Assembly (NCBI RefSeq): GCF_963556105.2 | Contig: NZ_OY829944.1 | Location: 1,268,501 to 1,332,500 of the forward strand | Direction of reading: 5' to 3' | From: an uncultured Tolumonas sp. | GTDB lineage: Bacteria; Pseudomonadota; Gammaproteobacteria; Enterobacterales; Aeromonadaceae | DNA length: 64,000 nt | Part shown: piece by piece, positions 49,559-64,000 of the stretch | How the letters are laid out: the number at the start of each line of letters is the position of its first letter | Position numbering within the stretch: the stretch's first letter is position 1 | Notes under the pieces: generated by a model | What the model saw: only the letters and a program-made list of their open reading frames with translations | The model's database searches: none | What the model was told of the DNA's origin: nothing | Program-made: the position numbers and the translations under genes

Positions 49559-50737
49559 CAGTTACCGATTTTTAATGGGTGTCTGTCAGATTAAATCTGG
49601 TTCAAATTCTTTTCTTCCCAGACTTTTTTACCATCAATAAACGTTTCCATTGGTGTTCGGCCACAGCACATTTTTCCTTGATGGGTTCGCTGATTATTGT
49701 AATAGCTCAACCAGATGTCCAGATCTGACTGAAGACTATCTAAATCGCTGTACAGCTTTTTCCTGAATGTGACTTGGTAAAACTCCTGAAGGATTGTCTT
49801 ATGGAATCGTTCGCAAATGCCGTTCGTCTGCGGGGACATTGCTTTTGTTTTTGTATGATCGATATCGTTAATGGCCAGATATAACTGGTAATCGTGCTGC
49901 TCAACTTTCCCGCAATATTCCGTGCCTCGGTCGGTCAATATTCGCAGCATCGGAATATTCTGAGCTGCAAAAAACGGTAATACGCGATCATTCAGCAAGT
50001 CGGCGGCTGTAATGGGCGTTTTTGTTGTATACAGTTTGCAATAAGCAACTTTGGAATAGGTATCGACGAACGTTTGTTGATAAATTCTTCCGACACCTTT
50101 TAGATTGCCAACATAAAACGTGTCCTGTGAGCCCAGATAACCTGGATGCATCGTTTCAATTTCGCCACAGACTTCATCATCCTGCTGCTTGCGTTCCAGC
50201 GCTGCAATTTGAGCGTCAGACAGCAATATACCGTCTTGAGCCACCTTGTGTTCCAGCGCCTTAAGTCGTTTTTTAAAGTTCTCTAAATCATGACGTAGCC
50301 AGACTGAACGCACACCACTTCCCGAGATGAAGATGCCCTGTTTACGAAGTTCATTACTGGTTCGCTGTTGTCCATGTGCCGGATACTCAATGGCATAATT
50401 GATGACAGCTTGTTCTGTCGTATCGTCAGTGCGATTTTTTAAGTTGGGAGCGCGTCGAGATTTATCAAGCAAAGCATCGATACCACCTTCTTCGACCAGT
50501 TCTTTATAGCGATAGAAGGTGTCTCTGGATACGCCCATGACTTTACAGGCACGGGAAACGTTATTCAGCTCTTCTGCCAAATTGAGAAGACCTGCTTTGT
50601 GTTTAATAACGGGATTGTTACTATGGATCATGAGAGTTACCTCTAGGTTGTTTTGATTAAGGATTCGACACCCATATCAAAACCGGTAACTCTCTTCTTT
50701 TCAAACAGAAGTGTCAGATCAAGTCGCGACTAATACA
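49535..50737 (-). mobile_element. IS481-family insertion sequence, 1203 bp
   Basis: Ends are TGT...ACA with 27-bp imperfect inverted repeats (20 of 27 matching, sharing GATCTGACA), flanked by exact 7-bp direct repeats. A second inverted pair lies inside (49561-49583 and 50667-50690). One full transposase gene on the minus strand. Confidence 0.9.
49591..50631 (-). CDS. IS481-family DDE transposase
   Basis: A 346-residue transposase: N-terminal helix-turn-helix (SRACKVMGVSRDTFYRYKEL), middle basic segment and an rve/RNase H-like catalytic core with Asp in FVDTYSKVAYC, Asp in ILTDRGTEYCG and Glu in NGICERFHKTIL. The frame is intact, so the element may be active. It lies opposite to the host gene it interrupts. 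Confidence 0.92.
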   Translation of the reverse strand: MIHSNNPVIKHKAGLLNLAEELNNVSRACKVMGVSRDTFYRYKELVEEGGIDALLDKSRRAPNLKNRTDDTTEQAVINYAIEYPAHGQQRTSNELRKQGIFISGSGVRSVWLRHDLENFKKRLKALEHKVAQDGILLSDAQIAALERKQQDDEVCGEIETMHPGYLGSQDTFYVGNLKGVGRIYQQTFVDTYSKVAYCKLYTTKTPITAADLLNDRVLPFFAAQNIPMLRILTDRGTEYCGKVEQHDYQLYLAINDIDHTKTKAMSPQTNGICERFHKTILQEFYQVTFRKKLYSDLDSLQSDLDIWLSYYNNQRTHQGKMCCGRTPMETFIDGKKVWEEKNLNQI

Positions 50738-51056
50738 CATAAAATTATCGCTGGATGATTTTGGTACCGGATATTCAAGCCTTTCTTATTTAAAACGTTT
50801 TGCTGTTGATAAAGTAAAAATTGATCAGTCCTTTATTCGCGATATGGATAAAAACCCGAGTGATGCAGCGATTGTGCGCGCTATTATCCAAATGTCTAAA
50901 AGCTTGGGGTTGCGTACGATTGCGGAAGGTATTGAAGAAGCGCATTTGGTTAAATATTTACAGATATATCATTGTGATGAAGCGCAGGGTTATTATTACA
51001 GCCGCCCGATCCCGTCAGATGATTTTGTCCAGTGGGTGCTTGCGTCACTGAAATAA
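50738..51056 (+). pseudogene. REC-PAS-PAS-GGDEF-EAL protein, 3' part of EAL
   Basis: This fragment begins with the right target copy and continues in the original frame as KLSLDDFGTGYSSLSYLKRF, then VKIDQSFIRDM and TIAEGIEE, the end of an EAL domain. It matches the paralogue at 57865-60138 closely. It has no ribosome site of its own and is unlikely to be expressed as a working domain. Confidence 0.9.
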
Positions 51057-51059
51057 TAC

Positions 51060-51096
51060 AGCTAAAGCGGAGCAATCTTGTTACTCCGCTTTAGCT
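51060..51096. terminator. hairpin between convergent GGDEF-EAL and chemoreceptor genes
   Basis: A 13-bp perfect stem (AGCTAAAGCGGAG / CTCCGCTTTAGCT) with an 11-base loop; short T stretches only. Confidence 0.65.
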
Positions 51097-51110
51097 ATCA
51101 GTGCGGCTGC

Positions 51111-52388
51111 TTAATTGAATGTTCGGCATAATTCATTTAGCTTTTCTGCCCGTTGCATGACTTTGTGGCTGTTAATATCGATGGCTTTGATTTGCTCGAG
51201 ATTAGCTTCGCCTAATTCGGTGAGTTCATTGATGTTTTTGGTCACATCCGCTAACGCAACGCCTTGTTCTTGCGCAGCAGCCGATATCTGTGCGGCGTAA
51301 TCGGTCATCTGCCCCAACTCTGACACCACTTGTTCCATCTGTAATGAGCTGGCATCGGTGTGTTGCACACAGGCACGGGTTTGCTCCAGATTGGCTGCCA
51401 TGATTTTTTCCCAGGCGGTCATGATGTGCTGAATATGTGTGATGCTGGCTTGTATCTGCCCTGTGGCTTTCTGGGTTCGGGTGGAAAGTGTTCTGACTTC
51501 ATCAGCGACGACAGCGAAACCTCGGCCTTGTTCACCTGCACGGGCTGCTTCAATCGCAGCGTTTAATGCCAGCAGGTTGGTTTGCTCGGCAATCCCCTGA
51601 ATTTCACTCATTACCCCGCCAATATGGTTGGCTTCTTCCACCATTTTACTGGCCGATTCCGATGCCTGTTCTGCCTGTTTGGCGAGTTGCTGAATTTGTT
51701 TTTTAGCATCAGATAAGTGAGTGCCAGCCTCATTACAATGTGCTGATGCCATGTTGACATAATCTGATGTGCTAACCGTTGAATGGGCGATTTCCGCAGC
51801 AGCTTCGGTCAGCTGTGTCACGGCGGCAGCAATTTGTTGCAAACTCGCTTCTTGTTGATCGATATCGTTTTTGGCTTTTTCTGTGGCGCTAAATAGTCTG
51901 CCAGCCAGTTTTTGTAATACACCGGTGGAATCTTGCGTACGCCCCAAAACGGTTCTGATCCGGGCCTGCCAATGTTTCAGGTGAAAATCAGCAATGCTCG
52001 ACAGATCGGTGCCGGAATAGATATGTCGTGTAATGCTGTCATATTCCGTGGCCAAAGAGCGCAAATATTGAGGAATGGTGATCAGATGCGGATAAAAGCA
52101 GATGGTCAAGAGTAAGAAAGAGAGCAAACACCAGATGGCAGTCAGCCATCCGGCAACAAAGTAAGCCGCAATAACACTGGCAGCCGCAAAGAGCAAACCA
52201 AGCAGCGGACGGTAGTCTTGCCATGAAAATATGATTTTTTTATTCAGCCGTTCCCGCTCATGCAGTTGTTTATAGATTTTTTCTGCCCGGTTTTTATCTT
52301 CAGCATTTGGTTTAACCCGGACAGATTGATAACCCACAATATTTTTATCTTCGTAAATGGGCGTTACATAGGCATCCACCCAATAAAA
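51111..52388 (-). pseudogene. Aer-like PAS chemoreceptor, 3' part (split by IS1111-type element)
   Basis: The 3' part of a chemoreceptor, beginning in the middle of the PAS domain ([13 protein letters not shown]). Two membrane helices follow, then a signalling domain with tip [21 protein letters not shown]. The frame appears longer to 52535, but that extra sequence is the insertion element. Joined to 53704-53979 it gives a 1554-bp, 517-residue gene with no change of frame. There is no HAMP domain. The type is related to Aer (redox/energy sensing), by architecture only. Confidence 0.9.
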
Positions 52389-52601
52389 TGTATGGTCCGC
52401 CCCGTTATTGCAAGAACAAACTTCAATGACGGGATTGGTCTGCGCTAATGTATTCGGAGTCTCTGTTGGGAGGCTCTCGCTTCCCGCTCCACGATGAGTT
52501 CCGCGCCGGAATATCCTCAAAAAAGCCCAAAGCATTTTCTGCTGTTTTTATTGTCAGGTTCTATTCCGGTGGTTCTACCGTTTTCGTCATCTTCTCTTTG
52601 C
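52389..52601 (-). ncRNA. candidate bridge RNA region of the IS1111-type element
   Basis: The 213 bases downstream of the transposase stop hold no gene. In the IS1111 group the bridge RNA is known to come from this end. The minus-strand sequence contains CAATAAAAA (52545-52553), a 9-base complement to the target flank TTTTTATTG at the insertion site. Exact RNA ends and fold were not determined. Confidence 0.5.
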
Positions 52602-53633
52602 TCATGCAAACTCGGATTGCAGTTTCTCTGCATTAAACGCTTCTTTGTACCTCAATACCGCCCAGACTATCCGGGCCAGTTTATTCGCTAACGCCACACA
52701 CACTACATTGAACGGCTTACTGGCTCGTAGTTGCACTAACCAGTCCCCAAATATCGACCCCGTCTTTTCCGGCCTGGCTAAAATCGCCCTCGCTCCATGA
52801 ATGAACAGCGTTCTCAGATGTTTATTCCCTCGTTTGCTTATTCCGAGTAAACGCGGTTTTCCTCCCGTCGAATGCTGATGGGGAACCAGCCCCAGCCATG
52901 CGGCCAGATTGCGTCCATTCTTAAATTGTTTCACACTCCCTAATTCCGCCATACATTGACTGGCCGTCAGTACACCAACTCCAGGGATCTCATGCAATAA
53001 TTGCCCTTCATCGCTCTGCGCAACATGGCGCGTAAGTTTGTCATCCTGCACTTTGATTTGTTCATTCAGATATTTGTAATACTCATGCAATGCCGTTAAT
53101 TCGATGTTTAATGCTGACGGCAGTTCGGGTGCATTCGCTGTCAGCCAGGTGAATAACTGTTTCATCGTCCCATGTCCCTGCGGCAGACTGACACCAAACT
53201 CGAGTAATAAAGCACCAATCCTGCACATGCATGCAGTTCGGTCTTTGATATATCCCTGCCGAACACGATAAACAGCGGTGATGAGTTGCGCATCCTCTGA
53301 TTTGACTTCAACAAATCGCATGGACGGCCGTTGCGATGCTTCAGCAATGGCATCAGCATCAATGAAATCATTTTTATTGCCTTTGACATAAGGCCGTACA
53401 TATTGAGGGGGAAGCAGTTTCACTGAATGACCGAGCTTAAGACTCAATCGTCCCAACCAATGAGCACCTCCGCAGGCTTCAAAGGCGATGGTGGTGAGCG
53501 GGGTGTCATAGATAAATTGGATCAACTGTTTGCGGGAAAGTTTTTTTCGAAAAAGGGTGTTGCCTTTGCGATCGTGTGCAACTAAATGGAAATTAGATTT
53601 GCCTAAATCGATACCAATGACTTGAATAGACAT
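52602..53633 (-). CDS. IS110-family transposase (recombinase)
   Basis: A 343-residue DEDD recombinase. The RuvC-like N-terminal domain starts GIDLGKSNFHLVAHDRKGN, with further acidic residues around 60-100; the C-terminal Transposase_20 domain has HEIPGVGVLTASQCMAELG, then FKNGRNLAAWLGLVP and KRGNKHLRTLFIHGARA with the expected catalytic Ser region nearby. The frame is intact. IS110-type enzymes use a structured bridge RNA to choose the target. Confidence 0.92.
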   Translation of the reverse strand: MSIQVIGIDLGKSNFHLVAHDRKGNTLFRKKLSRKQLIQFIYDTPLTTIAFEACGGAHWLGRLSLKLGHSVKLLPPQYVRPYVKGNKNDFIDADAIAEASQRPSMRFVEVKSEDAQLITAVYRVRQGYIKDRTACMCRIGALLLEFGVSLPQGHGTMKQLFTWLTANAPELPSALNIELTALHEYYKYLNEQIKVQDDKLTRHVAQSDEGQLLHEIPGVGVLTASQCMAELGSVKQFKNGRNLAAWLGLVPHQHSTGGKPRLLGISKRGNKHLRTLFIHGARAILARPEKTGSIFGDWLVQLRASKPFNVVCVALANKLARIVWAVLRYKEAFNAEKLQSEFA

Positions 53634-53703
53634 GATGGTTCACCTCCGTTACCTAACTCATTCTCAGCTTAGTCGCTGAGAACGGAGGCGGACCATCTAA
53701 TTA

Positions 53704-53979
53704 ATCCCCGTTTTTACAGCGGTTTTTGACAATTCCGCGCCATGCTTTGCCTTCTTTCAGTTTTTGCCACAGGTCACGAAAGGCGGTTTTAGGCATGTCG
53801 GGGTGGCGGATCACGTTATGCGGTAAACCAACTAATTCATCCAATTTATAACCGGAAACAGACAAAAAAGCGGTATTAGCATACGTCACATAGCTGCGTA
53901 AATCAGTGGTAGAAACTAATTGCACATCGTCTGGGAAAGTCACTTCTTTCCCTGTTTGAGAGAATTCTGATGTATTCAT
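53704..53979 (-). pseudogene. Aer-like PAS chemoreceptor, 5' part
   Basis: The first 92 codons of the receptor split by the IS1111-type element: MNTSEFSQTGKEVTFPDD, then PAS motifs VTYANTAFLSVSGYKLDELVG and HNVIRHPDMPKTAFRDLWQ, ending KNRCKNGD at the junction, where a stop follows inside the element. It aligns residue for residue with the paralogue beginning at 61767. Confidence 0.9.
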
Positions 53980-54078
53980 ATGTATATCCCATGCTAATTA
54001 TCCATTAAGAATTGAAGACAATTACGGGGATGTCAAAAAATTAGATGAGAAAGATGCGGTTTGGATCAACCTTTAGAA

Positions 54079-54113
54079 AAGAATTATCTCATTGAGTTTA
54101 TTCGATAATTCTT
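54079..54113 (-). terminator. possible terminator after the membrane GGDEF-EAL gene
   Basis: A 10-bp A/T-rich stem (AAGAATTATC / GATAATTCTT) with a 15-base loop, then T-rich on the minus strand. Weak stem. Confidence 0.4.
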
Positions 54114-54179
54114 ATATAAAAGTCTTGAATATTTCATACCTCCAAAGAAGTCTGTTCATCAGCTGGTCGTCAAATGGAG

Positions 54180-56576
54180 TTAGCTGACTAATTTGTTCTC
54201 TGGCCGCATTTTTTCGTTATAAAACGCTTCCAAGTCATGCAGTGGTAACGGCTTACTAAACAAATAACCTTGGTAGGCATGGCAGCCCAAGCGGGCGAGA
54301 TAATCACGTTGTGCTTCAAGCTCTACACCTTCGGCAATTACATTCAGATTCAGGCTCAAACCCAATGCCACAACCATTTTGGCAATAGCGGCATCATTGG
54401 CATCACTCAGAATATTTCTGACAAAACTCTGATCGATTTTAAGTTGATCTAAGGGCAACCGTTTTAGGTAATACAGAGAGGAATAACCGGTACCGAAGTC
54501 ATCTAACGAGAACCCCACACCGAGAGCTTTTAATAACGTCATTTTGGTGATGATGTCTTCGATATCATCAATCAACATGCTTTCCGTTAATTCTAGTTTC
54601 AGTCGTGATGGATTCGCGCCAGTTTGCTCAATAATATTCAGCACTTCGTCAACAAAATCAGCCTGATGAAATTGACGTGCACTGACATTAACGGCAATCG
54701 ATAAATTAGCCATATCCTTGTTGTTAGCCCAGCTAGCGATTTGTTCGCAGGCGGTTTTTAACACCCAGTGGCCTAATGGCAAGATAAGACCGCTTTCTTC
54801 CGCCAGAGGAATAAATTCAGCAGGGGATACTAAGCCTCGTTGCGGGTGGATCCAACGAACCAACGCTTCCACACCGGTCAGAATACCAGTACTGATAATT
54901 TGGGGTTGGTAATACAGTTGAAATTCGGCTTTGATAATGGCTTGGCGTAAACCATCTTCCATCGCAGCACGATTCATCAGCATATCTTGCATTTTTTGGT
55001 CGAAGAAACGGACGGTATTTCGCCCGGCGGCCTTAGCTTCATACATTGCCATGTCGGCTCGTTTCAAAAGCTCTTCAATGCTTTCATTGTGATCAATAAA
55101 TAGAGTGACCCCAATACTAGGTGTGCTGTAGCGTTCATGTTTATCGATCTGATAGCTTTGATTCAGGGCTGCGAGTATTTTTTCGCTGACATTTTTAGCC
55201 AACGCGGCAGCTTCTTGCATATCACTGCTTAGATCTTCCAGCAGAATTACAAACTCATCACCACCCAGTCGGGCGACCGTATCATCTTGTCGCACACAGG
55301 TAGTTAAGCGTTGTGCCACTTGTTGTAATAAACAATCGCCACTGTCATGACCAAAAGTGTCATTCAGTGTTTTAAAATCATCTAGATCGATAAACAGTAA
55401 GGCCCCGCATTTCAAGCTACGGTTACTTGAAATCAAGGCATGTTTTAATCGATCTAATAAGAGTCGACGATTGGGTAATTGTGTCAGCGGATCATAAAAA
55501 GCCAGATTATTGATTTCTGATTCGGCTGCTTTGCGTTCAGAGATATCTTCAAATACCCAAATACTACCGGCCTGCGGATTATGCGGGTCTAATCCACAAC
55601 CGCTCATGCGCGCCCAGAACGCACTGCCATCAAAACGTTTAAGTCGTAATTCTTCTGCATATCGGCCAAGAAGAACGGTCATGCTAAGTTTGGCTCGTTC
55701 ACGGATAGCCATAAACTGGTCATTGGATAAGTAGAGTTCTTTGGGCTGTAGGCCGTGCATGCTGCCTTGTTCATAGCCAAAAATGGCTTCAGCATGCAGA
55801 TTGGCTAATTGAATTACACCGTCACGAATAAAAATAACTCCGGCTGGAACATTATTCAGAATGGCTTGTTGTTCGGAAAACGCTGCCTGAAGATCCCGTC
55901 GCATTTGGTCTAGTTGTGCCGCCAAATGGCCTATCTCGTCGGTGCGTTGCCAGCCGACCTTATGGTTAAAATCGCCATCAGCAAGTTGATTAGAAAAGCG
56001 GGTTAAAGCGGCAAGTGGTTTAAGTACACGGTAGTGCAGGGCAAGCATGATCAATATCAACGCCAAAGTGAACTGGCCAAGCAATATATAGGTATAAATA
56101 GACTGATCTCGCCGTGATTGTTGAATCATCAACCCATCGTCGAGATCCACTTTCACAAATCCGGCAATTTCTCCGTTTAAGATCAGCTCATGCCACGCCG
56201 TGTGTAACGTACCGATATTACGCTCTGGATATTCCAGATTGAGTATCGGATCGTGTTTGGTATCACTGATCGTGATGCGAACGACCTGACGATCCTGAAG
56301 TGAGGCTTGTGCAATTTTATTGGCTAAGTTGATGTCGTAATTCCATACCGGTAGCGCGAGACTGTTCGATAACAACGCAATTTTGTCATTGAGATAGAGT
56401 TCAATATCGTTATTGGTTTTTTCTTGACGGAGGTGGTTTAACGAGATGATCCCTATAACTGCGGGCAGCAGCAAACCGGCACACATAGCAATGACAATGC
56501 CTATAGATAAGCTCTTGAATTGAAACGCCGCTCTTATTGCATTCCAACGTGTGCGTATTGCCTGTAAATCAAGCAT
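54180..56576 (-). CDS. membrane-bound HAMP-PAS-GGDEF-EAL protein
   Basis: A 798-residue c-di-GMP enzyme. Two membrane helices (about 25-47 and 165-185) enclose a periplasmic sensor region of about 115 residues; HAMP (about 185-235), PAS (240-355), GGDEF with ARLGGDEF, and EAL with GVEALVRW and DDFGTGYSSL follow. Both catalytic motifs look intact, so it could make and break c-di-GMP. It lies 55 bases downstream of a periplasmic binding-protein gene with no transporter, so that protein may bind its periplasmic domain. Confidence 0.92.
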   Translation of the reverse strand: MLDLQAIRTRWNAIRAAFQFKSLSIGIVIAMCAGLLLPAVIGIISLNHLRQEKTNNDIELYLNDKIALLSNSLALPVWNYDINLANKIAQASLQDRQVVRITISDTKHDPILNLEYPERNIGTLHTAWHELILNGEIAGFVKVDLDDGLMIQQSRRDQSIYTYILLGQFTLALILIMLALHYRVLKPLAALTRFSNQLADGDFNHKVGWQRTDEIGHLAAQLDQMRRDLQAAFSEQQAILNNVPAGVIFIRDGVIQLANLHAEAIFGYEQGSMHGLQPKELYLSNDQFMAIRERAKLSMTVLLGRYAEELRLKRFDGSAFWARMSGCGLDPHNPQAGSIWVFEDISERKAAESEINNLAFYDPLTQLPNRRLLLDRLKHALISSNRSLKCGALLFIDLDDFKTLNDTFGHDSGDCLLQQVAQRLTTCVRQDDTVARLGGDEFVILLEDLSSDMQEAAALAKNVSEKILAALNQSYQIDKHERYSTPSIGVTLFIDHNESIEELLKRADMAMYEAKAAGRNTVRFFDQKMQDMLMNRAAMEDGLRQAIIKAEFQLYYQPQIISTGILTGVEALVRWIHPQRGLVSPAEFIPLAEESGLILPLGHWVLKTACEQIASWANNKDMANLSIAVNVSARQFHQADFVDEVLNIIEQTGANPSRLKLELTESMLIDDIEDIITKMTLLKALGVGFSLDDFGTGYSSLYYLKRLPLDQLKIDQSFVRNILSDANDAAIAKMVVALGLSLNLNVIAEGVELEAQRDYLARLGCHAYQGYLFSKPLPLHDLEAFYNEKMRPENKLVS

Positions 56577-56631
56577 ATTTATCCTCTGGGTATATTCTGA
56601 CGCCTATATCCGTCAGGCGCTCAGTGCACAT

Positions 56632-57588
56632 TTAATGTGTGCTGATCAGCTTTTTAATCTCTGGTGTCAGGTGGTTTTCTAAAGTCACTAATTTGGCTGG
56701 CGTAAAAATGGTTTTGTCTTTGATGCTGCTGTTATTGATCGCAGCAACGGCCGCCTTAATACTTAGATAGCCCATTTGTCGCGGATCTTGCACAACCAAT
56801 GCATCTACATCATGTTTTTCCAGACCATCAAACAGAAAGTCGCTGGAATCAAAACCGACTAATTTGGTTTTCTGGGCCCGGCCCGCATCTCGTAATGCCC
56901 GCAATACGCCGTCGGTAGACGATTCATTAACGGCAAAAATGCCATCAATATCAGGTAGTCTTTTCAGCAACTCATCTGCACTGTGACGTGCTTTACCACG
57001 CGATGCACCACCGTAGATGTCGGCTACGATCTTTATGTCCGGAGCGTGCTCATTAATATAATGGATAAAACCTTGAGCCCGGTCATCGGTAGATGCGCTA
57101 CCGGCTACAATCCGAAAAACAACAACCTTGCCTTGTTTATGGAGGCTTTCTGCCAAGTGTTTTGCGGCAAGTTGACCGCTGGCATAGTTATCTGTGGTGA
57201 TGAAATTTTGATAAGAGGTGCCATTAAACGCAGAATCAACCACAATCACTTTGATGCCTTGATCTGCGGCTTTTTTTATTGGCTCGACTAAGCGTTGACG
57301 ATCTGTTGGTGCAATTACAATGGCATCGATACCGGGGCGAGTATAGATCTGTAAGATCCTGATCTGTGCATCAGTATCGTCGTTGTAAGCAGGGCCGCGC
57401 CAAGTCAGGCTAATATTGCCGATTTCACTGAGCGCCTCGTTTACCCCTGCGCGCATGATATCCCAAAAAATTTGGTCGCTGGATTTAGGTATGAAAACGA
57501 TGTTCATACTTTTTTCTTTTGCCGTTGCTGGCTGAACGATGAAAAATAAACAAACCAATAGTGCAAGTAAGCTCTTCTTTATGCTCAT
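56632..57588 (-). CDS. periplasmic sugar-binding-type protein (orphan)
   Basis: A 318-residue type I periplasmic binding protein like RbsB. A signal peptide (ending ATA-KEK) precedes MNIVFIPKSSDQIFWDIM, and ligand-loop motifs IVIAPTDRQRLVEPI, VDSAFNG, TDNYASGQLAAKHLA and FAVNESSTDGVLRAL. There is no ABC permease or ATPase nearby; the next gene is a membrane GGDEF-EAL sensor. A role as ligand-presenting partner, as with LuxP and LuxQ, is inferred. The ligand is unknown. Confidence 0.88.
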   Translation of the reverse strand: MSIKKSLLALLVCLFFIVQPATAKEKSMNIVFIPKSSDQIFWDIMRAGVNEALSEIGNISLTWRGPAYNDDTDAQIRILQIYTRPGIDAIVIAPTDRQRLVEPIKKAADQGIKVIVVDSAFNGTSYQNFITTDNYASGQLAAKHLAESLHKQGKVVVFRIVAGSASTDDRAQGFIHYINEHAPDIKIVADIYGGASRGKARHSADELLKRLPDIDGIFAVNESSTDGVLRALRDAGRAQKTKLVGFDSSDFLFDGLEKHDVDALVVQDPRQMGYLSIKAAVAAINNSSIKDKTIFTPAKLVTLENHLTPEIKKLISTH

Positions 57589-57864
57589 TGATCCCTATCC
57601 CGTCATGTAATCGATTCAGCAAAGTATCCATCAATTGCTGATCCGCTGATGCGTGTTATTTCATCATCGGTATTCTTATTATTAATAGGTTAATTTTGGC
57701 ATATAAAAACCAAAGCTAAGTTAAATTTTGAAATTTGTGGTTGGCTATGAACAGAAAATGAGATGTGGTCACAGCACTGATCAACTTATGGAATCAGTTG
57801 GTTAACTGCATTTATATCAGGATATATGGGGTTATGACTAAAGTTGAAATAAATTAACATCAAA

Positions 57865-60138
57865 TTAGTTGTCCAATCGGCATAAACCCAAATTTATATC
57901 TCGATAATATTGAATAAACTCTTCAGCAGGGAGTGGGCGACTGAATAAATAGCCTTGAATTTCGTCACAACCTAACTCTTTTAACGCCGCAAACTGAGTG
58001 TTTTTTTCTACTCCTTCAGCAATAACTGAAAGGTCGAGTGCATGCCCGAGCTGGATAATCGCTTTAACAATCGCGGCATCACCCGCGTCCTCTACCATAT
58101 CGCGAATAAAGGATTGGTCAATTTTAAGCTTATCGACAGCCAGTTGCTTGAGATACGACAAACTGGAATAACCGGTACCGAAATCGTCAATCGAAAGACG
58201 AACGCCTATTTTTTTCAAGCTGTGCAGTGTATTTCTAACGTCATTCACATCGTGTAACAAAATAGATTCGGTAAGTTCTAATTCCAAATGGCTGGCAGGT
58301 AAATTAGCTTGTTCAAGTGCAAGTGCGACCGTTTCGGTGAGATCGCCGCGTTTAAATTGTAGTGCGGAGAGATTAACAGCCACGACAAATTCTGGTATCA
58401 GATCGGTTTCTCGCCAGAGCTGTATTTGTCGGCACGCTTCATTCAAAACCCATTCACCAATAGGAATAATGAGCCCACTGCGTTCTGCACCAGGAATAAA
58501 TTTTGCTGGCGGAATCAAGCCATGCTCAGGGTGATTCCAGCGTAATAGGGCTTCTGCGCCAATAATTTTGCCGGTGGTTGTATCAATCTGAGGTTGATAA
58601 TACAGCTGTAGTTCTTTGTTTTTTATTGCGTTGTGCAATTGCCCCTGCAACTGAATATATTCCAGTGCATCGTTATTCATTTGTCCAGAGAAAAAGCGGT
58701 AGATATTTCGCCCAGAGTGTTTGGCATGATAGAGCGCGGTATCAGCGTGTTTAAGCAACGCATCAAATGATTTGTCATCATGAGGGTAGACACTGATACC
58801 GGCACTAAAGGTGATATTCAGTGTGTAACCATCAATATCAAACGGTTCAGTGAATGAAGAAACTATACCGTGTATTATTTCTTCTATACTTTCTACATCA
58901 TTGATATTACTTAGTAAAATGGCAAATTCATCGCCACCTTGGCGACTGAGTGTGTCAGTTTTACGTATGCATTTTTTCAGTCGATTGGCGACGCTAACCA
59001 GTAATTTATCGCCATAGACATGCCCAAGGCTGTCATTGATGTGAGTAAAATTATCCAAATCGAGAAAGAAAATAGCTACGCCAGATTTTTCGCGATCAGC
59101 GATGGCGGCGGCTTGCTCAAAACGATCTCGTAATAATGTCCGGTTGGGTAAACTGGTGAGCGGATCAAAGTGCGCCAGAAACTCCAACTTCTTTTCTGCC
59201 ACATTATGCAAAGTACGAGTACGTAAAGTTTCGATACCAAATGCCAGATCGTTAGCCAGTTCCTCAAGTAAGGATATCTCTTCTGCGCTAAAGGCATTAG
59301 CTTCCGAGGAGTAGATATTTAATGCGCCAAGCATTTTATTTTTTGTCGCTAAAGGTAGCGATATGCTTGAATGGTAATTACGCTCAGTTGCGGCTTGTCG
59401 CCATGGTATCAATTTCGAATTAGTTTGTGTGTCTGAATTCACGATTGTGGTACCAGTTCTTACTGCAGTACCTGTCGGGCCTTGACCCCATTCATTGTCA
59501 GCCCATGAAATCTTTATATGATCTAAAAAACCATGTCCGTAACCGGACTGAGCCACTGGCCGAATGGTTTTGGCTTCATCATTTTCCGGATAACCAACCC
59601 AAGCCATACGATAACCGCCAATTTCTACGGCTAAGCGGCAAATATCGACTAATAATGTTTGTTCATTATCGGCATGGATAAGGGTGGTATTACATTTACT
59701 GAGCAATTTAAGTGCACGAGTCAGATGCTTTTCCATTTGCTCGGCTTTTTTTCGCTCCGTAATGTCTTCATAAATGCCTAAAATGCCAATAATGACGTTA
59801 TTGGCATCCCGCAAAGGCACCTTAGATGTACGTAAGTAGGCAAGTTCGCCATTCGGCGATGTTAGCGGTTCTTCATAATTTAACTTAGGCTGGCCTGACT
59901 CCATTACGAGCATGTCATCAGCCCGATAGATGGCGGCTTGATCATGCCAGGCCATATCGAAATCAGTTTTGCCGATCAGATCGCTGGAATGGCTGAACCC
60001 TGCATCTTGTGCAAAACGAGAGTTACAACCCAAATAGCGGCATTCCCGATCTTTCCAGAAAACACGAATAGGAATACCTTCTACAACTTCTTGAATCAGA
60101 GATTTATAAGCAGTCTTAAGAAAAACGTTACTTATCAA
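57865..60138 (-). CDS. cytosolic PAS-GAF-GGDEF-EAL protein
   Basis: A 757-residue c-di-GMP enzyme without membrane helices: PAS with PAC (about 10-130), GAF (about 150-300), GGDEF with SRQGGDEF, and EAL with GAEALLRW, DDFGTGYSSL and VIAEGVE. Both active sites look intact. The start is TTG 60138, preceded by AGGA at eight bases; no in-frame ATG is nearby. It lies 75 bases after the second Aer-like receptor on the same strand, so transcription led by the riboswitch could reach it. It is a paralogue of the split gene at 47387-51056. Confidence 0.9.
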   Translation of the reverse strand: MISNVFLKTAYKSLIQEVVEGIPIRVFWKDRECRYLGCNSRFAQDAGFSHSSDLIGKTDFDMAWHDQAAIYRADDMLVMESGQPKLNYEEPLTSPNGELAYLRTSKVPLRDANNVIIGILGIYEDITERKKAEQMEKHLTRALKLLSKCNTTLIHADNEQTLLVDICRLAVEIGGYRMAWVGYPENDEAKTIRPVAQSGYGHGFLDHIKISWADNEWGQGPTGTAVRTGTTIVNSDTQTNSKLIPWRQAATERNYHSSISLPLATKNKMLGALNIYSSEANAFSAEEISLLEELANDLAFGIETLRTRTLHNVAEKKLEFLAHFDPLTSLPNRTLLRDRFEQAAAIADREKSGVAIFFLDLDNFTHINDSLGHVYGDKLLVSVANRLKKCIRKTDTLSRQGGDEFAILLSNINDVESIEEIIHGIVSSFTEPFDIDGYTLNITFSAGISVYPHDDKSFDALLKHADTALYHAKHSGRNIYRFFSGQMNNDALEYIQLQGQLHNAIKNKELQLYYQPQIDTTTGKIIGAEALLRWNHPEHGLIPPAKFIPGAERSGLIIPIGEWVLNEACRQIQLWRETDLIPEFVVAVNLSALQFKRGDLTETVALALEQANLPASHLELELTESILLHDVNDVRNTLHSLKKIGVRLSIDDFGTGYSSLSYLKQLAVDKLKIDQSFIRDMVEDAGDAAIVKAIIQLGHALDLSVIAEGVEKNTQFAALKELGCDEIQGYLFSRPLPAEEFIQYYRDINLGLCRLDN

Positions 60139-60213
60139 GGTCTATTCCTATGTATCTATTGGGTTGCAATTACTATTATTTATCAAACTAACTATATATC
60201 TTTATAAATAAAA

Positions 60214-61767
60214 TTAATTGAACGTTCTGCACATATCATTCAATCTATCAGTATGTTGCATGATGTGATTACTATTCATATCAATTGCTTTCATTTGTGC
60301 CAGATTGTTCTGACCTAAAACCGTTAATTCATTAATATTTCTTGTTACATCCGCTAATGCTGTGCCTTGTTCATGGGCTGCAGCCGATATTTGTGCGGCC
60401 AAATCCGTCATTTGATCTAGGTCGTTAACCACTTGTTTCATCTGGGTGGTGCTTTGATCAGTTTGTTGTACACACGCGCGCGTCTGTTCTACGTTTTCCA
60501 TCATCATATCTTTCCAAGATGACAATATTTGATGAATATGGCTGATGCTGGTCTGTATTTGTTCTGTTGCTTTGTGGGTGCGAGTCGACAGAGTTCTGAC
60601 TTCATCGGCTACCACTGCAAACCCACGACCAAATTCACCCGCTCGGGCTGCTTCGATGGCGGCATTGAGTGCCAATAGATTGGTTTGTTCGGCAATACCC
60701 CGAATTTCTGCCATTACACCACCAATATGCGCTGTTTCTTCTACAAGATTAGCTGCAGAAACCGAGGCATTCTCTGCTTTTTGCGCGAGTAATTGGATCT
60801 GGTTTCGAGTAGTTAATAAATGTGAGCTGGCATCATTACAACGTTCTGATGCGCTATGTACATAATCAGCGGTATTAACGGTTGAGCGTGCTATTTCAGC
60901 CGCAGTTTCAGTTAATTCGGTGACTGCAGCGGCAATTTGTTGAAGACTGGCTTCTTGCTGATCCATGTCTTGCTCAGTTTTCGCTACTGTTTGGAACGAC
61001 TGTTCGGCAATGCCTTGTAGCACTGTTGTTGAGTCTTGCGCCTGGCCTCATATGGTTCCGATCCGCGCTTGCCGGTGCTGAAGATGAAAGTCAGCAATAC
61101 TATGCAAATGCGTGCCAGAATAAATTTGACGAGTAAGGCTATCGTAGTTGTTTGATAAGGAATTCAGATAACGAGGCGTTGTGACCAAATGCGGATAAAA
61201 GCAAATTGCCAACGCGAGGAATGAGAGTAAATACCCCATAGCGACGGCGATATTAGCTAATGAAATCGCAGCCAGAATAATGGCAATGGATAACCCCAGC
61301 CCAATAATCGGGCGGCGATCTTGCCAAACAAAATTGATTTTTTTGTTTTGACGCTCTTGCTGGCGTAATTGAGCATATATTGTTTCTGCGGTTTGTTTTT
61401 GCGCAGGCTCAGGTTTTACTCGAACCGATTGATAACCCACAATGGAGCCATTTTCATAGATGGGTGTGACATAGGCGTCAACCCAATAGTAATCGCCATT
61501 TTTGCATCTGTTTTTGACCAAACCCCGCCAAGCTTTACCTGCTTTTAGTTTCTGCCACATATCCTGAAAGGCTATTTTCGGCATATCCTCGTGACGGATC
61601 ATGTTATGAGGTTTGCCTACTAACTCATCCAGTTGGTAACCGGCAACATTCAAAAAAGCACTGTTAGCGTAAGTGATGTTACTTTTAAGATCAGTGGTTG
61701 AAACCAGTTGTTCGTGATCCGGAAAATTAATTTCTTTCCCAATATTGGCCTGATGAGCGTTATTCAT
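60214..61767 (-). pseudogene. Aer-like PAS chemoreceptor with one in-frame TGA
   Basis: PAS domain (NITYANSAFLNVAGYQLDEL, KNGDYYWVDAYV), two membrane helices and a signalling domain with tip [18 protein letters not shown], all in one frame except TGA at 61048-61050 (codon 240). The paralogue has Leu there. From ATG 61767 the gene is 1554 bp, exactly the length of the rebuilt paralogue, so no base has been gained or lost. An upstream ATG at 61776 is also possible. It is headed by a c-di-GMP riboswitch. A sequencing error is possible. Confidence 0.88.
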
Positions 61768-62015
61768 TGATGTCATTTCATGTTTCTTTTGGAATAGATG
61801 CAGGAATAAAAATGATAAACAGTTAGCCAACAGCCTTAGGTATTGCGTTTTTTGACGTGACAAAATCAGGCAGGCGAGCAGAAAGGTCGAAGCAATGACG
61901 GATCAATAGTGTTGTAACAGTCAAATAGGATTTTTGAGAAAACAACGCGATGCTCCATTCAGAAAATTAATGCCCGATGGAGGTAGTCGCAAAATGTTGC
62001 TATCGGCGCTTTTTG
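61768..62015 (-). other. leader between riboswitch terminator and receptor start
   Basis: About 250 bases of untranslated leader. Apart from one arm of the alternative hairpin at its upstream edge I see no gene or clear signal in it. Confidence 0.5.
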
Positions 62016-62026
62016 AAAAAAGCGCC
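62005..62026 (-). promoter_or_regulatory. alternative hairpin overlapping the terminator T run
   Basis: A 9-10 bp stem (GGCGCTTTTT / AAAAAGCGCC) with a tiny loop. It uses the 3' arm and T run of the adjacent terminator, so both cannot form together: a plausible antiterminator. Confidence 0.6.
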
Positions 62027-62054
62027 CAGAGATGCAAAGATAATTTGCACGCTT
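62016..62054 (-). terminator. riboswitch expression-platform terminator
   Basis: On the minus strand AAGCG, inner stem TGCAAA / TTTGCA, then CGCTT and a run of six T. It directly follows the c-di-GMP aptamer. Confidence 0.6.
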
Positions 62055-62160
62055 AGAATTGATGGCAACTCCGCTATCGTGATCAGTTTTATTGCTGATG
62101 GTAGACCGGAAGCTTTGCGTCCTGACCTTTCGGAACAGTTTGCCTTTTTCATTCGAAAAA
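62055..62160 (-). ncRNA. c-di-GMP-I (GEMM) riboswitch aptamer
   Basis: Read on the minus strand, the region contains AGGCAAACTGTTCCGAAAGG, then GGACGCAAAGCTTCCGG and TCTACCATC, and later GATAGCGGAGTTGCCATC. These match the conserved blocks of the GEMM-I class (GGCAAACC, GAAA tetraloop, GGACGCAAAGCCTCCGGCCTA, GGTAGCGGGGTTACC). The 5' and 3' ends are approximate. It lies upstream of the Aer-like receptor and a GGDEF-EAL gene on the same strand. Confidence 0.92.
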
Positions 62161-62176
62161 GATGTATTAGATACTC

Positions 62177-62182
62177 ATTATA
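62177..62182 (-). promoter_or_regulatory. probable -10 element for the riboswitch transcript
   Basis: TATAAT on the minus strand, about 20 bases before the aptamer and after the SDR stop codon. No good -35 element is seen. Confidence 0.45.
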
Positions 62183-62221
62183 TTGCATCTGAATGGTGCA
62201 TCGCTACATAAATATTATCGC

Positions 62222-62980
62222 CTACAAAAACATACCACCCGAAGCTTCAATTCGTTGAGCATTAACCCAGTGAGTTTGCTCTGAAAGCAGGGCTGCAATG
62301 ACGTTACCGATGTCATCTGGTAACCCAACCCGACCTAACGCGGTTTGTGATGCCACGAACGCATTGAGCTGTGCATTGTCACGCACGGCACCACCACCAA
62401 AATCGGTTTCAATAGCACCAGGGGCGAGCACATTGACGTTGATATTACGGGCGCCTAGCTCTTTGGCCAGATATTTGGTTAGCACTTCAATTCCACCCTT
62501 CATGGTGGCATAGGCGGCGTAACCCGGCAGAGCAAAGCGTGCCAGACCGGAAGAGACATTTAAAATGGAACCGCCATCAGCCAGCAATGGTAACAATGCT
62601 TGTGTCAGGAAAAACACCCCTTTCAGATGGATGTTCATCAGCTGATCGAACTGTGCTTCGGTGGTTTCCGCGAAGCTGGCATGCACGCCAACTCCGGCAT
62701 TATTCAGCAGATAGTCAAAAGTATCCCGCTGCCAAGTGGTTTGCAGATGGGCTTTTACTTGCTCGGCGAAAGCGGGGAATGAGTGGCTATCGCCAACATC
62801 AAGCTGTAATGCAATTGCTTTGGCGCCATATTTTTCAATCTCAGCGACGACTGCCTGCGCTTCTGTTTCCTGACTGCGATACGTCAAAATGATATCGACA
62901 CCACGTTCTGCCAATTTCAGCACCGCATTACGGCCCAATCCGCGGCTGCCGCCAGTGATGAGTGCAATTTTCTGATTCAT
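62222..62980 (-). CDS. short-chain dehydrogenase/reductase
   Basis: A 252-residue SDR with cofactor motif TGGSRGLGRNA, structural NNAG, catalytic Ser in NVSSGLA, and Tyr-x3-Lys in YATMKGG, then the PGAIETDFGGG loop. The Arg near the cofactor motif suggests NADP(H). It is divergent from a LysR gene that probably controls it. Substrate unknown. The riboswitch promoter lies just after its stop codon. Confidence 0.9.
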   Translation of the reverse strand: MNQKIALITGGSRGLGRNAVLKLAERGVDIILTYRSQETEAQAVVAEIEKYGAKAIALQLDVGDSHSFPAFAEQVKAHLQTTWQRDTFDYLLNNAGVGVHASFAETTEAQFDQLMNIHLKGVFFLTQALLPLLADGGSILNVSSGLARFALPGYAAYATMKGGIEVLTKYLAKELGARNINVNVLAPGAIETDFGGGAVRDNAQLNAFVASQTALGRVGLPDDIGNVIAALLSEQTHWVNAQRIEASGGMFL

Positions 62981-63088
62981 GATTTGATCCTTTGTTTATT
63001 AAGGGGGGGTTAAACGCTTTTGCGATAATCGATGAAGTCAGTGTATTGAATGCTATTGAAGTGATAAACGTGATGTTTGTGATTAGAC

Positions 63089-63107
63089 TGTTCATATATG
63101 GCGAACA
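63089..63107. promoter_or_regulatory. inverted repeat between SDR and LysR genes
   Basis: TGTTC-N9-GAACA in the 143-base divergent gap. A candidate LysR-type site by position. Confidence 0.4.
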
Positions 63108-63123
63108 ATGGTGAGCGTAGAAG

Positions 63124-64000
63124 ATGAATCAGATAGAGGCTATGCAGATTTATGTCCGTGTTGCTGAGTTGGCGAGTTTTACCTTGGCGGCACAGAGTTT
63201 AAATTTGCCGAAATCATCCATTTCCACGGCAGTGCAGCGTCTGGAAAATCTCATGCAAACTCGATTATTACACCGTACCACCCGACGCGTGCAGATGACG
63301 CAAGATGGGCTGGTTTTCTATGAGCGTTGCAAAGACATTCTGGCCGATATGGATGAATTGCAGGGGCTGTTTCAGCGTGATCCGGCAGAATTAACCGGGC
63401 GGCTTCGGGTCGATATGCCGGTAGGCATTGCCCGCACTATTATTATGCCTCGCTTGGCTGAATTTACGGAAAGGTATCCGCATCTTGATATTGAAGTCAG
63501 TTGTACCGACCGGTTGGTCGATTTAGTGCGTGAAGGGTTTGATTGTGTATTGCGCGTGGGCAAGTTGCATGACTCCAGTTTAGTGGCGCGACATATCGGC
63601 CAGTTTGAGCAGATCAACTGTGCCAGCCCGCAATACTTAGCTACTTACGGCGTACCGCAAACACTGGCCGATCTACAGCAGCATCAGTTGATCCATTACG
63701 CATCGACATTAGGCACGAAATCAGCTGGTTTTGAATATGTCGATAGTGTCAGTAACAAAACCTGTTATGTACCGATGCGTGGGTGTATCACGGTCAATAA
63801 TTCCGATGCGTATGAAGCCGCCTGTTTAGCCGGATTGGGGATCATTCAAGCGCCCTTGCACGGTATGCAGCCCCACCTGAACAATGATTTGTTGGTTGAA
63901 CTGTTACCGCAATATAAAGCTAAACCCATGCCGATATCACTGCTCTATGCTAATCGTCGCCATTTACCTAAACGCGTGTACGTGTTTATGAGTTGGGTCG
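63124..64000 (+). CDS. LysR-family transcriptional regulator (3' end missing)
   Basis: The frame is open from ATG 63124 to the window edge (292 codons). It starts MNQIEAMQIYVRVAELASF with helix-turn-helix LNLPKSSISTAVQRLENLM, then the CrgA-type effector domain (GRLRVDMPVGIARTIIMPRL, REGFDCVLRVG). A full LysR is about 300 residues, so only a few residues are missing. It is divergent from the SDR gene. Confidence 0.9.
   Translation, partial: MNQIEAMQIYVRVAELASFTLAAQSLNLPKSSISTAVQRLENLMQTRLLHRTTRRVQMTQDGLVFYERCKDILADMDELQGLFQRDPAELTGRLRVDMPVGIARTIIMPRLAEFTERYPHLDIEVSCTDRLVDLVREGFDCVLRVGKLHDSSLVARHIGQFEQINCASPQYLATYGVPQTLADLQQHQLIHYASTLGTKSAGFEYVDSVSNKTCYVPMRGCITVNNSDAYEAACLAGLGIIQAPLHGMQPHLNNDLLVELLPQYKAKPMPISLLYANRRHLPKRVYVFMSWV

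Follow-up and report, generated by a model that had tools for sequence, protein, structure and literature searches.

Which gene start does a c-di-GMP riboswitch control when it stands before a chemoreceptor gene, and by what means does it act? The locus that raises this question lies in a stretch of 64,000 nucleotides of Tolumonas DNA, which was analysed as a whole and is called the window here. We searched the window for structured RNAs using the Rfam covariance models. This analysis revealed a match to RF01051 on the minus strand at 62154-62061, with 69.6 bits against a gathering score of 35 and an E value of 1.4e-11, covering positions 1-87 of the 87 of the model. It is the sole Rfam match above its gathering score within the 64-kb window, and it was recovered in a separate search of 50600-63200. 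An earlier note on this DNA had recognized a c-di-GMP-I aptamer from the sequence alone and named this covariance search as one way to check it; the identity is firmly supported by the score. Judged by its sequence, this is a true c-di-GMP riboswitch of class I, and it would be expected to bind its ligand. The aptamer lies on the sense strand of the genes that follow, and the receptor ATG at 61776 is located 284 nt downstream (282-284 nt in all four orthologs). The parts of the leader and the genes behind it are as follows, all on the minus strand.

62177..62182, minus strand: TATAAT box, a candidate -10 element just upstream of the aptamer, present in four of four orthologous leaders
62061..62154, minus strand: c-di-GMP-I (GEMM-I) riboswitch aptamer, full-length match to the RF01051 model
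62062..62069, minus strand: strand X, the 3' end of the aptamer (GUUGCCAU), included in the X:X* pairing counts
62033..62050, minus strand: hairpin H1 (UGCAAA/UUUGCA), between the aptamer and X*, present in the longer folds of four of four orthologs
62005..62026, minus strand: hairpin H3 (GGCGCUUUU.../...AAAAGCGCC), with a T6 run (62021-62016) in its 5' arm, folding in four of four orthologs
61996..62003, minus strand: strand X*, the partner predicted by the model for X (ligand-free) or X' (ligand-bound)
61977..61982, minus strand: anti-Shine-Dalgarno strand CUCCAU, which pairs with AUGGAG; across 13 sequences, 98.0% of the cells in its 4-pair core are paired
61953..61958, minus strand: AUGGAG, containing GGAG, the probable Shine-Dalgarno sequence of the TTG start (alternatively, an ATG start), from the alignment with the CHASE4 leader
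61941..61946, minus strand: strand X' (GUUGUU), containing the TTG codon, from pairing and folding
61823..61945, minus strand: leader open reading frame from TTG, 40 codons, with a start region that shares homology with the CHASE4 gene start
60214..61776, minus strand: PAS chemoreceptor gene (PAS_3 and MCPsignal), 520 codons, with an in-frame TGA at 61050-61048 (codon 243)
57865..60138, minus strand: PAS-GAF-GGDEF-EAL gene, 757 aa, with intact GGDEF, RxxD and EAL motifs

The region that holds the TATAAT box (62210-62155) is identical at 55 of 56 positions among the four orthologous leaders. This candidate promoter is without a consensus -35 element and was not listed by the promoter scan. One further c-di-GMP-I copy is found in the same genome (G000:C1:395001-395095), and at least one match was observed in 43 of 61 genomes, comprising this genome and 60 relatives from the genus, family and order, in a survey whose stricter filters lose weak matches.

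The order of aptamer, PAS receptor and PAS-GAF-GGDEF-EAL gene (60138-57865) given in the earlier note is correct. The receptor and enzyme genes are indeed 75 bases apart, in this genome (G000) and equally in G003, G009 and G010. These four keep the whole order, out of the 11 genus genomes searched, own included; several of the genomes are incomplete, and this count is therefore a lower bound. The enzyme shares 95% identity with its counterparts in G003, G009 and G010, and 67% with a relative in G002, at whose site the stricter-filter survey found no aptamer. Outside the genus, none of the best 80 of at least 579 confirmed receptor relatives was accompanied by an aptamer at an E value of 0.01 or better, some of these 80 having less sequence upstream of them because their contigs are short; the best sub-threshold scores among them were E 0.08 in L028 and 0.35 in L036. 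On this count, we reject a general association between the riboswitch and receptors of this type.

A feature absent from the earlier note is the interruption of the receptor frame. The TGA at codon 243 is not found in G003, G009 and G010, which harbor intact 520-codon copies; an uninterrupted PAS-to-MCP signalling frame is thus present in the three relatives and not in this genome. The private codons of the receptor comprise 15 altered ones, the stop counted as one, versus 32 silent ones. Elsewhere the gene appears to be under constraint still, and the interruption therefore seems recent. Codons 235-246 (61074-61039), around the TGA, hold five of the 15 private amino-acid changes. Local recombination, relaxed selection and sequence error are candidate causes of these changes, and an assembly error could be the source of the TGA itself.

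Further along the same strand, a gene for a periplasmic sugar-binding-type protein (Peripla_BP_4, 57588-56632) ends 55 bases before a HAMP-PAS-GGDEF-EAL gene (56576-54180), and the two may form a c-di-GMP sensor pair fed by the binding protein. A second PAS chemoreceptor gene (53979-51111, minus strand), about 8 kb downstream, is split in two, with an IS110-type transposase gene (52602-53633) lying between its parts; in G003, G009 and G010 it is an open frame of 523 aa. The 1161-base stretch with the IS110-type gene occurs in nine copies in the genome, at 98-100% identity. Both receptors of the cluster are therefore broken, by different means. No second aptamer was detected ahead of the receptor paralog in 50600-63200 at E values up to 1. 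On the plus strand, a full-length match to psRNA2 (RF02349) at 50634-50821 reaches 48.4 bits, below the gathering score of 65, with an E value of 2.6e-9 in the stretch searched.

The platform between aptamer and genes had been read in the earlier note as a terminator-like hairpin with six T and an overlapping alternative. The T6 run (62021-62016) and the overlapping hairpin (62026-62005) are indeed present; the terminator did not hold up as a conserved feature. A transcriptional platform would have c-di-GMP toggle between a hairpin before the T6 run and the overlapping H3, so that transcription ends or continues into the receptor operon. This arrangement is consistent with the pairable sequence that precedes the T6 run (T7 in G009 and G010), with the overlap of H3 and the T run in four of four orthologs, and with the single terminator-like site of the L128 ortholog, a 6-pair stem followed by CTTTTTTT (shuffles mean 0.4), although this site derives from a different hairpin. 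However, the terminator scan, which covered 61700-62300 of the window and, among the other orthologs, L128, found no terminator-like site in 61700-62300 (shuffles mean 0.6). In G003 the T run is broken (TTGTTTT). Transcripts ending at the T run fold differently among the orthologs. In nine related leaders, those of the CHASE4 genes described below (L133 and eight others), the T run is absent: the longest run between the aptamer and X* is 3-4, and G008 has a T6 only after X*. An intrinsic terminator as the platform is thus rejected as not conserved, on the basis of scan and folding, and transcriptional switching in this leader appears quite unlikely.

We then compared the leader with the other c-di-GMP-I leaders of the genus. 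Elsewhere in the same genome, a gene encodes a CHASE4-HAMP-PAS-GGDEF-EAL protein of 926 aa. By its first 33 residues this gene was found in 11 of 11 genus genomes and in none of the 64 other family genomes searched, and an aptamer lies directly before it in nine of the 11 genus genomes. In the protein, EALARW is intact and AGDEF replaces GGDEF, motifs that point to a probable c-di-GMP phosphodiesterase. The similarity of the receptor leader to the CHASE4 leader of its own genome continues beyond the aptamer and includes the GGAG and TTG that probably serve as ribosome-binding site and start. The local alignment score is 37 with this leader and 42 with the CHASE4 leader of G002; dinucleotide-shuffled versions of the own CHASE4 leader, 500 in number, score no higher than 31. 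Four of the nine CHASE4 leaders score above every shuffle and the remaining five (22-28) do not; nine other c-di-GMP-I leaders of the genus score 18-22 against the receptor leader. The aptamers themselves follow the same pattern, with a scaled alignment score of 0.88 against the own CHASE4 copy and 0.73-0.91 over the nine CHASE4 copies, versus 0.44-0.61 for nine other genus copies. A similar aptamer with an X*-like strand was observed in L121 (G005, 2001-2260) before a different gene, whose start reads like that of what we take to be a bacteriohemerythrin. L121 was included in the leader alignments, where it scores 17, a value reached by 341 of 500 shuffles, and was dropped from the folding and pairing sets because its leader is without a matching start region.

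Homology of the receptor and CHASE4 leaders is well supported by these alignments. Aptamer, X, X*, anti-Shine-Dalgarno strand, GGAG and TTG all align between the receptor leader and the CHASE4 leaders of the genus (L133 and eight others). They differ in what comes next: in the CHASE4 leaders the enzyme gene (about 926 aa) follows directly, whereas the receptor leader has a short open reading frame instead. In an ancestor of the four genomes, a CHASE4 leader was probably copied to the front of the receptor gene, with its aptamer, its platform and the opening bases of its gene; we infer this direction because the CHASE4 form is more widely present. For the CHASE4 gene, TTG is the likely start and GGAG its likely Shine-Dalgarno sequence. 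An alternative ATG, within ATGGAG and 15 bases upstream of the TTG, is in frame in seven of nine CHASE4 genes; the site is out of frame in G002 (ATG) and in G008 (GTG).

The shared platform suggests a switch at the level of translation. Without ligand, X would pair with X* and the downstream start region would be freer. With c-di-GMP bound, X would be held in the aptamer and X* would pair instead with X', around the probable TTG start and beside the helix of Shine-Dalgarno and anti-Shine-Dalgarno strands. Such pairing would block initiation, making this an OFF switch. Counted across 13 leaders, 94.2% of the cells are paired for X:X* (slid controls 21-56%) and 98.4% for X*:X' together with the Shine-Dalgarno/anti-Shine-Dalgarno core (slid controls 32-56%). 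In neither X:X* nor X*:X' were pairs changed on both sides among the 13 leaders, the changes that keep a pair being all one-sided, and shuffling the 3' letters among sequences left the pairing values unchanged; the pairing is therefore conserved complementarity without covariation support. The X* helix is just 6 pairs long in eight of the 13 leaders, which is not unusual compared with ordinary start regions: among the 48 start regions of window open reading frames of at least 200 aa, 11 form a helix of at least 6 pairs with X* in the CHASE4 form and 7 in the receptor form.

Folding was used to compare the two states, the locked aptamer being crudely represented by a fold of the downstream RNA without the aptamer. 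In seven of the nine CHASE4 leaders, the TTG is unpaired at 1-4% in the downstream RNA alone versus 40-66% with the aptamer present. The exceptions are G004, where the unpaired fraction moves in the opposite direction upon locking (0.03 to 0.52), and G006, where it does not change (0.37 to 0.40). Locking opens the Shine-Dalgarno sequence in the G002 CHASE4 leader (0.09 to 0.37). As for the receptor leaders, the TTG of all four is closed in the locked state (0-18% unpaired) and only partly open in the ligand-free fold (0.39, 0.09, 0.37 and 0.09 in G003, G009, G010 and G000, respectively), where X:X* reaches 0.81, 0.18, 0.08 and 0.15 in the same order. The Shine-Dalgarno sequence of the receptor leaders is closed in both states (0.00-0.03).

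The conserved pairing, its position and the folding, combined with the precedent of the Vc2 riboswitch, underlie the translational OFF reading. Vc2 precedes tfoY in Vibrio cholerae and is described in two reports as a class-I translational OFF switch with P1 as its key switching element (PMC7371385, PMC9262584). The present leader is like Vc2 in its class-I aptamer and proposed translational OFF switching. It differs in that Vc2 precedes another gene, and in that the masked start here opens a leader open reading frame before the receptor, an arrangement seemingly copied from a GGDEF-EAL gene. According to a review, neither of the class-I switches of V. cholerae terminates transcription, and the two respond in opposite directions (PMC6366702). 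The same review mentions a riboswitch ahead of a chemoreceptor gene in an unrelated genus (PMC6366702); that element is likewise located upstream of a receptor, and the mention describes no platform, GGDEF-EAL partner or leader open reading frame for it. A search of the literature on Tolumonas riboswitches, on c-di-GMP riboswitches with GGDEF or chemotaxis genes and on riboswitch duplication or leader peptides, covering little of the subscription literature, returned nothing on this locus. Class-I c-di-GMP switches are already known as a class, and what is unusual here is the apparent copying together with a gene start and the placement before a leader open reading frame. A copied class-I riboswitch whose inherited platform acts on translation, in the manner of Vc2, is the reading that we favor, with a confidence that stops a little short of even; ligand binding, switching direction and downstream effect are all predictions.

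What this switch would gate differs between the two copies. In the CHASE4 copy, the masked start is the probable start of the gene itself; in the receptor copy, it is that of the leader open reading frame and not of the regulated gene. Read from the TTG, this frame is 40 codons long in this genome and 32 codons long in all three relatives. If the ATG at 61958 is taken as the start, another frame is read, with 30 codons here (30, 30, 30 and 21 over the four orthologs). After its first codons, the start region is shifted by one base relative to the homologous CHASE4 gene start. Because of this shift and the differing lengths, a conserved leader peptide is not favored. The receptor's own start is equally accessible with the aptamer locked or unlocked (0.47 versus 0.48 here, and within 0.02 in the three orthologs), and direct masking of the receptor start is rejected accordingly. 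The gated start opens only the leader open reading frame, and any control of receptor or enzyme would therefore have to pass through that frame or through the whole transcript, by polarity or coupling. In the folding model, control of the receptor would thus be indirect.

It can then be asked whether the copy controls anything at all. The copied riboswitch may be a relic that no longer controls the receptor operon, the genes being read from other starts or promoters while the locus decays. Possible signs of such decay are the receptor's stop codon and the IS110-type insertion in the downstream receptor paralog; the predicted absence of an effect of the aptamer on the receptor start, and whole-leader folds in which X:X* is dominant in just one of four receptor leaders, fit the same account. 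Against it, identity over the four orthologs amounts to 93/94 positions in the aptamer and 112/131 in the platform (62060-61930), compared with 89/140 in 61929-61790 and 49/57 at the receptor start, and three relatives keep an intact receptor and enzyme. We regard loss of function as somewhat improbable. That the switch, copied with its ribosome-binding site and first codons, now gates a decoy frame whose translation links c-di-GMP to the chemoreceptor and a second enzyme is a further reading, and an unlikely one.

The earlier note had proposed that c-di-GMP may control a taxis receptor and its own metabolism through one RNA. The placement of the switch before the receptor and GGDEF-EAL genes is supported by the synteny in four of the 11 genomes. 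Whether c-di-GMP controls the receptor of this genome is doubtful, given its broken frame and a predicted switch whose target is the leader open reading frame; with the receptor broken, the switch could matter here mainly for the GGDEF-EAL gene and later genes. The idea of feedback fits the paralogous CHASE4 leader better, where the platform lies directly on the CHASE4-HAMP-PAS-GGDEF-EAL gene. An OFF switch at that gene would repress a probable c-di-GMP phosphodiesterase and thereby create positive feedback.

If the reading with a decoy frame is true, the riboswitch would be a modular, movable translational switch that links the level of c-di-GMP, its turnover and taxis. It has seemingly spread to a new operon with a gene start attached, and the CHASE4 copies (nine of 11 genomes) and receptor copies (four of 11) form a natural pair for testing RNA-mediated c-di-GMP feedback.
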